Positions 54,853-58,993 of a stretch of DNA of 64,000 bases are shown piece after piece. The stretch is taken from positions 5,021,483 to 5,085,482 of the forward strand of contig SMSO01000032.1 in assembly GCA_004764695.1 (NCBI GenBank), read 5' to 3'. The position numbers and the translations under genes are program-made. The stretch's first letter is position 1, and every line of letters starts with the position of its first letter. The stretch comes from Schizochytrium sp. TIO01 (lineage: Eukaryota; Sar; Bigyra; Thraustochytrida; Thraustochytriidae). The notes below the pieces were generated by a model. It did no database searches. It worked only from the letters and a program-made list of their open reading frames with translations, and was not told where the DNA came from.

Positions 54853-55549
54853 GGGCGCAGGCCGTCAGCCTGGCCGCCTCGCGTGGTGCCGACGGGAAGG
54901 CACCGTGGCGAGAAGCGTCGTCGGGAGCTGAGGGGCGTCAGCGTAGGTACGAGCGGCTGCGCGGTGATTGTGGCGGAGGCTAAGAGCCTGAAGAGTTCCA
55001 CAGGTGCAGGTGCAAGAGCAACTGCCTTGCTTGCGGGCAGCGAGGGCGACTGGAGACGCAAGCGCGATCGGGCTTTGCCCTTCGGACACTCAGTCTCCCT
55101 TTTACTATTCGCAGTTCATTCCATTTCATTTCCATTTCTTTTCACATTTGAGGAAATTAATTAATCAATTAATTAATTACACTAATCAGAAAGTAAACTC
55201 TGAGTCAGTTCAGTTTCATTTTGATTTTGTATTAACTAAAATTAATAAGCGCATGAACAGTAGGGTCAAAAAACGTAAAAGTTCGATAACTTATATTTCG
55301 ATGTGATTGTTTCATATTAACCATATATTATGTTTAGTTAGATTATTAATAAGAAGTAGAGGTTAGATAAGAAAATGGGGAGGCCGAGGAACCGACAAGC
55401 TCCAAACACTGCAAGTGGAGCAAACCTCGAATACAAACCAGCAAAGTTCTTTCACCATCTCATTGGAAACACGCTAGTCGCTTACTTGATGCTTCAGGTG
55501 CTGACGCGTGATTTGCGGGGGAGTATTGAAGTAATATACAGCTACTGTC
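54853..55549. other. Upstream flank of the macro-domain gene and of the IS607 element
   Basis: AT-rich after 55140. It includes an AATTAATT-type stretch near 55156-55180. A 60-codon ATG frame at 55375-55557 (+) (GRPRNRQAPNTASGAN onward) ends in the telomere-like array and has no recognised domain. The left end of the IS607 element may lie in this stretch or just after it. Confidence 0.45.
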
Positions 55550-55574
55550 TAACCTAACCTAACCTAACCTAACC
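55550..55574. repeat. (TAACC)5 telomere-like array
   Basis: Five perfect TAACC units (TTAGG on the other strand) immediately upstream of the IS607-type element. The unit equals the arthropod-type telomere repeat and is one base shorter than TTAGGG. Whether this organism's telomere uses it cannot be told from the window. Confidence 0.9.
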
Positions 55575-55584
55575 AAGCCCTCAT

Positions 55585-55609
55585 GTCCGACACATCCTGT
55601 GTATCGGAC
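55585..55609 (+). other. Imperfect hairpin near the left end of the element
   Basis: GTCCGA (55585-55590) pairs with TCGGAC (55604-55609); inside, CACA pairs with TGTG around a TCC loop, leaving a two-base bulge. It lies 10 bases after the TAACC array and may belong to the left end of the IS607-type element. Confidence 0.4.
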
Positions 55610-55740
55610 TGACATCATACATTCATTCCTGCCTGTATCCAGACCTGAAACCCCAATAACTCATATATCATCCTCTTTCTCTTTCTCCTGAGTTCGTCAT
55701 CCTTGTCAGACTACCTCTCCACGCTTCACAGCTCAGGCTA

Positions 55741-56367
55741 CTCTGCAATAGGAAGTTTGGGGTCTCAGCAAGCGCCCTTCGGGGCTGGGCCGACGGCGGA
55801 CGCGTGCGCTTCGCGCGCTTCCCCGGAGGCAAGCGCATCTATGCCAGCGACGATGTTGAGCGCATCTTTGATTGCGGTTCCACCGGCCGCGAGCAACGCA
55901 GCTCTGGATGTACCGTTATCTACGCCAGAGTGTCCTCGGTCAAGCAAAAGGAGGACCTCGAACGCCAGGTTGGCGATCTCCAGCGCGCCTACCCAGATGC
56001 TTCCGCCGTCTACAAAGACATCGGTAGCGGGGTCAATTTCAAACGCCAAGGTCTGTGCTCCCTACTGGACGCCTGTGACCGCGGCGGAATCGGCCAAGTT
56101 GTGGTCATGCACCGCGACCGACTTGCGCGAATCGCAGTCGACCTCTTGGAACACCTTTTCGAAAGATAAAATGTCAAACTCGTGGTACACGGCCAAGATG
56201 CACATGCCGGAGACTCAGACACCTTCACCAAAGACCTCCTCGGAATCATCACCGTCTTTGTGGCATCGCATCACGGAAAACGAGCAGCGCAAAATAGACG
56301 GCGACGACGCAGCGAGGAAGAAGCGAGCTCGCACGAAGGCGCGCAAGACCATCAAGAAAGAATATAA
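55741..56367 (+). pseudogene. tnpA: IS607-type serine recombinase TnpA, interrupted by a stop codon
   Basis: The frame encodes an N-terminal MerR-like DNA-binding domain (RKFGVSASALRGWADGG, then FPGGKRIYASDDV, at 55750-55860) and a serine-recombinase catalytic domain: VIYARVSS with the nucleophile Ser codon at 55933, DIGSGVNFKRQGL, and the HRDRLAR motif. A single in-frame TAA at 56167-56169 follows LLEHLFER; beyond it the same frame resumes with the expected end of the family (LVVHGQDAHAGDSDTF, then LLGIITVFVASHHGKR) to a second stop at 56365-56367. So only one nonsense change separates this from a full-length recombinase. No ATG lies in frame ahead of the helix-turn-helix (the upstream in-frame stop is at 55657), so translation would need a GTG or TTG start or a spliced leader exon. 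Probably inactive as a full-length enzyme. Confidence 0.85.
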
Positions 56368-57646
56368 CCTTGTCCGTGCCAGAAAGGTTAGGGTATATCC
56401 TACTAAAGATCAACGTACACAGTTGCTTAAATGGTTTGGTGTCACTAGAAGAGCCTACAATATTGGCGTTGCGTTTCACCGAGACATGGCGAAGGGCGAG
56501 AAAGAAGCCATCAAATTGCACCAAGAAATGTGTATTATAAAGGATCCCAAGACGAAGCAGGTTTTGGTAGATGAAGATGGGAATCCAAAAACACATGGGG
56601 CACTTGGTGGAGAACTGAAGGCCGTCCGATATAAAGAAAAGAATCCTACTCTTACATGGGTGCTCGATGTCCCCCAGGCTATCCGTGATTCCGGGATTCG
56701 GGATTTCTTCAAGGCTCTTAACTCGGGACGAGCCAAAAACGAAGAACTCGCTGCACAAAAGAAAGTTCACGAGCAATCTTTTTATAAGTTTCGGACCAAG
56801 CGTGACGAATCACAGATTTTCGAAGTGAATGCACGTACCTGGAATGCGAAGAAATCAAAGACCTCCAACTTTCTAAAAGAATTCCGAATGCGTAAAGAAA
56901 AGTTCCCCGACCAGATTTCGAACGCCATGCGTGTGCAAATGAATCGCCTTGGGCATGTCTACTTCTGCTTCTTACGAGAAGAAAAAAAGCGTCCAATGGA
57001 CCAGGCACCCAAGGCGCACCATGGTGTCATTGCTCTAGACCCGGGTGTTCGCTCGTTTCAGACGATGTATGACGCCGATGGCCGCGCCATTGAATGGGGC
57101 ACAGGGAAAGATTTTAGAACCATATTCTATCTCTGTCGCCGCGTTGATAAGATCCAAAGCAGCATTGATAAAAAGAAAACTGCATCCAGTGATAAAGACA
57201 ATTTCAACACCCCCTTGAAGCGCGCCTTCTATCGCGCCCAACTCAAGATCAAGAACAAGATCACTGAGATTCACCGCAAGCTCGCGCTTTGGCTTTGTGA
57301 AAACTATCGTGTTATTCTCTTGCCCAAGTTCGAAACCTCTAAGATGAGCAGGAGGATGGAGCGACGGATCTCCAAGAAGTCTGTTCGAATGATGTGTCGT
57401 TGGTCCCATTTTGGGTTCCGCCAGGCTCTCATTCATAAGGCTGAGATGTTCCCGTGGTGCAAGCTTGTTCTTTGCCAAGAAAGTTACACTTCCAAAACAT
57501 GCAATGAGTGTGGTACCCTCCACCATAACCTCGGGGCATCCAAGATTTTCCAATGCCCTAATCCCAAGTGCAACCATGTAGCAGACCGTGATGTCCATGC
57601 CGCAAGAGGCATCCTTTTACGCTACCTATCCAAGGACATGATTTAA
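56171..57646 (+). CDS. tnpB: TnpB/Fanzor2-type RNA-guided nuclease
   Basis: A 491-residue protein from the ATG at 56171, one base after the tnpA TAA; the same frame is open much further upstream. TnpB-family proteins are RuvC nucleases guided by an RNA from the element's own right end. Landmarks: an N-terminal WED-type start (LVRARKVRVYPTKDQRTQLL) preceded by about 67 extra residues; a REC-like helix region; RuvC-I VIALDPGVRSFQTMYD with Asp290; RuvC-II ILLPKFETSKM with Glu388; a zinc finger with Cys444, Cys447, Cys462 and Cys467; and RuvC-III ADRDVHAARGIL (Asp472/Asp474). All expected acidic residues and all four cysteines are present, so the nuclease looks intact, unlike the recombinase. The N-terminal extension contains the basic cluster ARKKRARTKARKTIKK, which could act as a nuclear-localisation signal. 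In the IS607 context the best name is Fanzor2. Confidence 0.93.
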   Translation: MSNSWYTAKMHMPETQTPSPKTSSESSPSLWHRITENEQRKIDGDDAARKKRARTKARKTIKKEYNLVRARKVRVYPTKDQRTQLLKWFGVTRRAYNIGVAFHRDMAKGEKEAIKLHQEMCIIKDPKTKQVLVDEDGNPKTHGALGGELKAVRYKEKNPTLTWVLDVPQAIRDSGIRDFFKALNSGRAKNEELAAQKKVHEQSFYKFRTKRDESQIFEVNARTWNAKKSKTSNFLKEFRMRKEKFPDQISNAMRVQMNRLGHVYFCFLREEKKRPMDQAPKAHHGVIALDPGVRSFQTMYDADGRAIEWGTGKDFRTIFYLCRRVDKIQSSIDKKKTASSDKDNFNTPLKRAFYRAQLKIKNKITEIHRKLALWLCENYRVILLPKFETSKMSRRMERRISKKSVRMMCRWSHFGFRQALIHKAEMFPWCKLVLCQESYTSKTCNECGTLHHNLGASKIFQCPNPKCNHVADRDVHAARGILLRYLSKDMI

Positions 57647-57653
57647 AAAAAAT

Positions 57654-57718
57654 CATTTCATTGAGTCGCGGGTTAGTCTAACTAATCCGCGATCGGGTCT
57701 TAGACCTGCTATGAAATG
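57654..57718 (+). ncRNA. Two-hairpin structure after tnpB, candidate omega-RNA/fRNA 3' part
   Basis: CATTTCAT (57654-57661) pairs with ATGAAATG (57711-57718), an 8-bp closing stem. Inside lie an 11-bp hairpin, 57667-57677 with 57681-57691 (one G-U pair, loop CTA), and a 6-bp hairpin, 57694-57699 with 57703-57708 (one G-U pair, loop TTA). TnpB/Fanzor guide RNAs begin in or after the 3' end of the nuclease gene and end in a guide drawn from flanking DNA, so position and shape fit. The exact RNA ends and guide are not determined. A simple terminator or element-end recognition site is the alternative. Confidence 0.5.
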
Positions 57719-58993
57719 CAAGTTTTGCAAATTTTGTAGTTTAAAATCTAAGAGAGCGAATAATACAGAGACCATCAACGAATGCCCTTCCTTCACTCAT
57801 CCATTAGCTCCGCAGCGGCGAGGGAGGTCTCACAATTGCAAAAGAAGAACCTTGCACACGTGGGCATCTTGCCCAGATCTTCATTCGTTTGCTTGCTTAT
57901 CGCTGCGACTTCAGGTCCCTGTTTGGTGGCCAGTCTCGAAGTGAGGCTGTTGCAGTCTGCCTAACAAGGTGCTATGGACTCCTACTGCTTCGAGGAGGAG
58001 CTGTAACCCAATTCTGAGCTGTGAACCAAAGCCTTTTCAGGAGTCTGCAATGACGGTGGTTCATGAGGAGCTCAGACAATAGAGGCATCGGGCGCTGGGC
58101 CAAGCCTGGGCTGCCTCTCTTCGCAGCGCCGAGTGGTCTCTTCGCTGGCGCATGATAAAGTCTTTCGCTGCGTGCTTTACAACTACAGGTGTGCTTTGCT
58201 CATAATTATTGGCATACCTAACTTAGAACTTTACTTTTGTTTGTTTATTTGTTTGGTAAAGAAAAGTTTACGTTTGTAAAGCATACTATTATTGGCTCTA
58301 GGAGCCGCCTAGCGTTTTCTAGGCTCCCGGTTTCGCTCTTTCTTAGTTTGATCAGAATGAAATGATGCTTTGGTTTGGATTGTAGACAAGTAAGTTTAAG
58401 CAATCTGAACAAATGGAAGAAATTATGGTTCTCTATTGAAGGGGGAAAATACTTCACTTGCGGGAGCTGAATAGTTCACTTGTGGAGGGAAGAGGCGACT
58501 GTTAGGGCTTGAGAGGAACGAATCCAGAGCATCCACTCTTATGCTCCGCGCACGCGTAATTCAGCCCAGACTCTAGAGAAGACACCGAGGAAGCTCAAGA
58601 GAGCACTAATCGTGGGCTGTTTGGTCTTTATGAGATGTTAGTTATGAAGTGGAAGGCGGAGGAGTTCCTGAAAAACCAGATATGAATTGCTTTGGTTGAC
58701 CAAATAGGTACATAACGAAAATCCATAAGTCGAACAAAGGAATTTTGTAAGTGAAGTATATGGAACTCACAAGTGAGACAAACATTTATTATCCATAGTA
58801 ATGGTTATCTCTGTAAATGGGTTATAGAGAACTATACAGGGCGCGATTCCGGCGTATAACTGATTTTTCAAGATAACATGAACAGCAAATTGAAGAGCGC
58901 AAAACATCATCGCGGCGCGAGCAAGTGCTCTGCGCGCGACCAAAACACCTGAGGGATTGCGTGAGATTTAAACCCTTCAAAGTGCCTGCGACC
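57719..58993. other. Intergenic region
   Basis: Between the IS607-type element and the ZW10 gene. No gene is supported; frames here are short and unrecognised. If the right end of the element lies past the hairpins, its junction is here. Confidence 0.5.

Follow-up and report, generated by a model that had tools for sequence, protein, structure and literature searches.

The window analysed here, a stretch of 64,000 nucleotides, is part of contig C31 in an assembly of 64 Mb and 37 contigs. As supported by sequence comparison, it holds an IS607-type transposable element with an intact Fanzor2-type nuclease frame in a eukaryotic genome. The element is likely one copy of an IS607-type Fanzor2 family that has spread in a thraustochytrid-like nuclear genome and whose nuclease takes its N-terminal domain from the +1 frame of the transposase gene tnpA. 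More generally, sequences and predicted structures suggest that the N-terminal domain of pro-Fanzors and Fanzor2s is probably dual-coded with the transposase, because the frame is open, stops are avoided, synonymous change is reduced, the predicted fold is Fanzor2-like and the domain is retained in a viral Fanzor2.

The initial annotation had placed a two-gene element at 55550..57718, between a macro-domain gene and ZW10. The element and its location are confirmed; its limits are wider, since the aligned copies end jointly at 57754 on the right and near 55261 on the left, the left end being uncertain by several bases. The features of the element and its nuclease are as follows.

55261..57754, + strand: IS607-type Fanzor2 element (shared ends in the copy alignment).
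55841..57646, + strand: Fanzor2/TnpB frame from the first in-frame ATG 3' of the insert in tnpA, 601 aa (frame analysis; transcript-derived homologue P0001, 601 aa).
56171..57646, + strand: shorter nuclease open reading frame (ORF) of the initial annotation, 491 aa (ORF list, profile matches).
56051..56215, + strand: predicted nuclease N-terminal domain, residues 71-125 of 601, overlapping the catalytic domain of tnpA in its +1 frame (AlphaFold2, structural alignment, HMM).
57038..57046, + strand: RuvC-I DPG motif, D290 of 491 = D400 of 601 (motif reading; definition of PMC10711439).
57479..57481, + strand: alternative RuvC-II glutamate just 5' of the zinc finger, E437 of 491 = E547 of 601 (fingerprint from PMC10711439).
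57500..57592, + strand: zinc-ribbon cysteines (CNEC, CPNPKC) and DRD motif (motif reading).

A profile search for TnpB and RuvC, which had been proposed as a check, matched the ORF at 56171-57646 to NF040570 (guided_TnpB, E 2.9e-26) and to the Pfam family Cas12f1-like_TNB (E 2.2e-13). The scores lie under the NCBIfam TnpB cut-offs (NF040570, 92.7 against 100 bits; NF038280, 57.3 against 350; NF038281, 63.4 against 425), which indicates a divergent relative and not a canonical IS607_TnpB. According to the available text of PMC10711439, the fingerprint of Fanzors and pro-Fanzors consists of a DPG motif in RuvC-I and an alternative glutamate about six residues before the zinc finger. Both are found here, the glutamate at nucleotide 57479 in the context ESYTSKTC, and together with the predicted fold of a solved Fanzor2 they place the protein in the Fanzor2/pro-Fanzor lineage. 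An upstream serine transposase matching NF033518, broken in the window copy and whole in nine copies, is the feature of IS607 membership. Asp290, the four zinc-binding cysteines and the DRD motif are all present in the nuclease frame, as had been annotated. Glu388, which had been taken as catalytic, sits at the canonical TnpB position, whereas Fanzors are reported in the same text to use the pre-zinc-finger glutamate, here E437. The nuclease and the recombinase had been described as neighbouring genes. Both frames exist, but the evidence indicates that one of them largely overlies the other; the nuclease frame itself was correctly recognized and its upstream continuation through tnpA overlooked. 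Starting at about 55650, this frame spans 665 codons between two stops.

A DNA search for other copies, which defined the ends, found 21 copies with a match of 1,900 bases or more (80-100% identity), as well as one truncated copy. Like the profile matches and the fingerprint, these long copies bear out the annotation of a eukaryotic IS607-type element whose Fanzor2-type nuclease is intact. The 491-residue nuclease stretch lacks stops in fourteen copies and a 232-codon tnpA is found in nine. Changes shared by at least two copies are rarer in tnpA (15/240 and 12/261 nt) than in the nuclease (90/618 and 58/661 nt). The protein P0001, derived from an MMETSP transcript and with a predicted start, is identical to the copy L032 at 596 of 601 residues (99.2%), so the frame is transcribed in the same or a very close organism. 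A working recombinase, which the initial annotation implied for the window copy, is not found there: tnpA is broken twice, by a 294-bp insert and by a stop.

55375..55456, + strand: tnpA, first 27 codons, where the winged-helix part begins (the same ATG starts the 232-codon tnpA of nine other copies).
55457..55750, + strand: 294-bp insert in tnpA, made of a 67-bp stretch and a 227-bp repeat (shared with L032, L033, L034 and L052).
55751..56361, + strand: rest of the tnpA serine recombinase, catalytic domain, with a nonsense codon at 56167-56169 (NF033518, PF00239).

The open piece of tnpA matches NF033518 at E 1.4e-28 and 99.7 bits against a cut-off of 110, or 143.3 bits with the stop read through. 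The insert-bearing subfamily, composed of the window copy and four others, has still multiplied, which suggests movement in trans. The first 67 bp of the insert (55457-55523) occur only in these five among the loci compared. The 227-bp repeat (55524-55750) also occurs alone elsewhere in the genome; it starts with TATTG, ends with CAATA and carries a (CTAAC)n run, and two solo copies, L057 and L060, lie between 5-bp duplications. From its sequence it looks like a repeat resembling a miniature inverted-repeat transposable element that landed in tnpA of one Fanzor2 subfamily. An intron was rejected, given that the ends of the insert are neither GT-AG nor AT-AC and that part of it is a stand-alone repeat.

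It could be argued that the family is a relic, with frames open only through the youth of the copies and nothing that moves or cuts any more. An intact TnpA is impossible from the window copy, most of the 103 matches listed by a protein search are decayed, and singleton changes in tnpA are evenly spread over codon positions, as in neutral decay. On the contrary, both frames are whole in eight copies, the closest pair is 99.77% identical, dN/dS over 13 copies stays below 0.4 (0.29 for tnpA, 0.39 for the nuclease-only part) and a transcript-derived homologue exists, so that a relic appears rather unlikely. Older history is also visible: in the older copy L048 (G000:C6:722137-720133) tnpA and nuclease form one open frame, a natural fusion through a frame change, and L053-L059 together with unlisted matches are remains of older Fanzor2 families (38-60% protein identity), which speaks for several waves of spread in this genome.

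Where tnpA is intact, the open nuclease frame continues upstream across it, in the tnpA +1 frame. Indications that this overlap is coding come from cyanobacteria. A scan of prokaryotes gave two loci (L073 and L074), and a Moorena genome contains at least nine such elements in three groups that are about 33-37% identical. Fourteen Moorena loci were viewed and nine tested, leaving out L075 (the same as L073), L081, L087 and the pieces L089 and L093. None of the nine has a stop in the nuclease frame across its 174-207 tnpA codons, while 2.1-5.0 are expected by codon permutation (P 0.0035, 0.001, 0.0195, 0.0215, 0.015, 0.05, <0.0005, 0.029 and <0.0005) and 9.8-12.7 by draws from the element's own nuclease codons (P<0.0005 each). 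The remaining frame over the same tnpA holds 8-17 stops and the tnpA frame itself 0, 0, 1, 1, 0, 1, 4, 0 and 2. The element L086 has four stops in tnpA and none in the overlapping nuclease frame, so that the nuclease outlives the transposase. Across Moorena's order, 34 of 148 genomes gave matches, and 71 of 78 near-full-length rows (30 genomes) were stop-free with frames of at least 480 codons, at most nine candidates being scored per genome and identical copies counted separately.

Canonical IS607 TnpA/TnpB pairs have the same two-gene order, with the serine recombinase first, and their reading frames often overlap according to the accessible parts of PMC6188088 and PMC9956272. They differ in that an annotated overlap with the next gene is present in four of eight records and measures 4-17 nt there, and in that the +1 frame of tnpA contains stops in eight of nine, 4-17 each. 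The nine controls, of which eight were picked among 157 matching plasmid records and the ninth comes from a metagenome-assembled genome of Thiotrichales, gave 4, 14, 16, 5, 10, 0, 8, 6 and 17 stops, near expectation; a recombinase-frame scan of 18 loci contained one canonical control, L080. Judged from the sequences, both frames are thus stop-free beyond expectation in the cyanobacteria and weakly so in the window family.

Synonymous change points in the same direction. In Moorena group 2 (five elements), change at fourfold-degenerate sites of tnpA is 0.523 (0.406-0.632) 5' of the residues PYW, close to the 0.526 (0.477-0.571) of the nuclease-only DNA, and falls to 0.229 (0.139-0.326) from PYW to the tnpA end; nuclease-frame fourfold sites in the overlap change at 0.17. 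These rates argue that, in this group, the protein sequences of both frames are constrained across the shared DNA. Group 1 goes in the same direction with wide overlapping intervals (0.333, 0.159 and 0.406). Six aligned group-2 elements carry a nuclease-frame ATG at the same place in the winged-helix part of tnpA. In the family of the window, the copy L036 has such an ATG in the winged-helix part; the window copy is without it and its next ATG is at 55841.

The stretch in which cyanobacterial tnpA fourfold change is halved is folded by AlphaFold2, and the folded N-terminal stretch aligns with the solved mimivirus Fanzor2 (PDB 9b0l) from residue 53 of the latter. Among the matches listed in the structural alignment, TnpB and Cas12f rows begin after this stretch. 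A predicted helix at residues 140-163 of 601 follows the domain. The N-terminal extension is also carried by distant homologues: a profile built from 18 proteins found 51 of 118 homologues at E<=1e-3, those 18 included, and it also matches a Moorena protein and L061, a Fanzor2 of a giant virus. In L061 the would-be tnpA frame is full of stops and the extension is kept. This protein was the one near relative among 12 loci from an alignment-based viral search; the alignment listings show up to 50 rows, and families beyond these may exist. A plain viral search with the window nuclease confirmed none of four candidate stretches, and a search by a mimivirus fragment found no viral relative.

Several observations weigh against dual coding or limit it. 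CasX rows also begin inside the N-terminal stretch (model 104-106), so that the match to 9b0l rests on the first and last residues, and the folded segment has a moderate predicted local distance difference test score (pLDDT, block means 53-88). All nine Moorena elements tested belong to a single genome, and elements were found via a nuclease query. Part of the overlap has been lost from one Moorena copy, L087, and in the order-wide scan the frames of six C-terminal rows reach only 407-434 codons. Among the canonical controls, the one from a GC-rich haloarchaeon has 0 stops with 1.1 expected. As to L061, the sole overlapping ORF tested matches no Pfam family, and its lack of tnpA concerns the overlap only. 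Finally, the window family taken alone is suggestive: the zero-stop test gave P 0.097 by codon permutation in L036 and 0.021 and 0.0044 with other codon usages, and its fourfold rates (0.027, 0.037 and 0.009 against 0.061) go weakly in the same direction with overlapping intervals.

Alternatively, the +1 frame could be open only through codon bias and the N-terminal likeness could be a passive by-product of out-of-frame reading of conserved TnpA, the nuclease beginning at 56171 or at inner starts. In keeping with this, the conserved motifs coincide with the most conserved parts of TnpA, the own-codon permutation in the window family is the P of 0.097 just given, and residues 5' of PYW are disordered and freely evolving in the nuclease frame. 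The database proteins P0100, P0103 and P0109 also start further inside the nuclease, although these starts may reflect gene callers that avoid long overlaps. Passive conservation is nevertheless disfavoured and appears improbable, since stop avoidance recurs in three divergent groups of cyanobacterial elements when canonical tnpA serves as the control, tnpA fourfold change is halved from PYW on, L061 retains the domain without an overlapping tnpA, and the predicted domain agrees with the mimivirus Fanzor2. It seems reasonably likely that the domain arose by overprinting of an IS607 transposase gene, that cyanobacteria and eukaryotes have kept the double coding, and that the domain was released from it later, in the viral Fanzor2s without overlapping tnpA.

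Over 97% of its length, the ZW10 neighbour of the element is identical to an MMETSP transcriptome protein; it shares 70% identity with ZW10 of Hondaea fermentalgiana, and the host is therefore a thraustochytrid or close to one. Bacterial or viral contamination of the assembly, which the initial annotation had named as a refutation and which the prokaryotic nature of the IS607 family and its relatives in cyanobacteria and viruses might suggest, can be dismissed almost with certainty, given 21 long copies on many contigs with differing flanks, eukaryotic neighbouring genes including this ZW10 and a near-identical product of a eukaryote transcript.

Both ends of the element carry further features.

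55258..55260, + strand: CAG, candidate insertion motif and target-adjacent motif (TAM), directly left of the element (CAG count at left ends).
57647..57754, + strand: right end, probable guide-RNA scaffold with two hairpins and a closing stem (fold energy, consensus fold).

By script count, 15 of 20 copies have CAG in the 12 nt that precede the conserved left end (background 0.154 per 12-mer), L047 and L050 being left out because their left ends are replaced. In a sixteenth copy, L040, the script was mis-anchored and CAG is visible in the junction alignment. Between CAG and a conserved CAAA, 3-7 bases vary among the copies L031-L052, both sides being conserved. No obvious target duplication is seen at most junctions. 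The exception is L035, in which the 11 bases after CAG on the left equal the start of the right flank, giving an 11-nt repeat at both ends that is unusual for IS607 insertion. Two further places carry the flanks of L036 directly next to each other, with no element between them (83 and 82% identity), and the same holds in part for the flanks of L043. Empty sites from this comparison lie at C13:6201349-6201484 and C34:3292645-3292780. AG would fit as core dinucleotide. The last 108 bases have a fold-energy z of -5.31, with none of 200 shuffles as good, and the consensus fold, computed over 17 distinct copies, includes a few positions that vary yet still pair; no Rfam family matches this RNA at E 0.1. 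By analogy, the guide would be expected from 57755 onward.

Taken as a mechanism, the TnpA of intact copies would cut the element out and integrate it beside CAG, and copies with a broken tnpA, such as the window copy, might move in trans. By analogy with known TnpB and Fanzor systems, the nuclease, with the right-end RNA scaffold and a guide from the right flank, could cut the resealed donor site (CAG plus flank), which would favour re-copying of the element. One stretch of DNA would specify both the catalytic domain of the recombinase and the first folded domain of the nuclease, whose start would lie upstream of those of the gene callers and of the initial annotation. The inner frame may be translated. 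In a eukaryote, ribosomes might reach it through leaky scanning beyond the tnpA ATG, or an inner promoter might serve it; the context of this ATG (A at -3, G at +4) would make leaky scanning inefficient. The N-terminal domain might support binding of guide RNA or target near the wedge domain.

Fanzor2, pro-Fanzors, their fingerprint and the guide-RNA model are already described in the accessible parts of PMC10711439, PMC10432273 and PMC3627910. The Fanzor2 of Acanthamoeba polyphaga mimivirus (TnpB-like protein L79, PDB 9b0l) is 21% identical to the window protein. Cyanobacterial pro-Fanzors (PMC10711439, as far as available) share the fingerprint and an IS607 transposase with the window family and, for Moorena, the overlap arrangement, but they reside in bacterial hosts and are 29-35% identical to the window protein; the words 'overlap' and 'N-terminal' do not appear in the available text of that article. 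The eukaryotic elements ACa-1, CRv-1, ISvMimi_1 and ISvNY2A_1 also combine Fanzor2 with a serine recombinase and lack terminal inverted repeats and duplications; they belong to other hosts, and no overlap is described for them in the accessible part of PMC3627910. In the open-licence literature searched, as far as its text was available, no description was found of a nuclease N-terminal domain encoded across tnpA.

The window family is a multi-copy, recently active eukaryotic set with 14 open nuclease frames, for which a guide RNA is predicted and CAG is the candidate motif. If the overlap is indeed coding, a domain of an RNA-guided nuclease would have been derived from another reading frame of its partner gene; the dated relatives would extend from cyanobacteria to protists, and in one viral line the domain would stand by itself. 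Annotated pro-Fanzor and Fanzor2 genes may then miss their first domain, which bears on tests of activity, and transposase and nuclease would evolve under mutual constraint.
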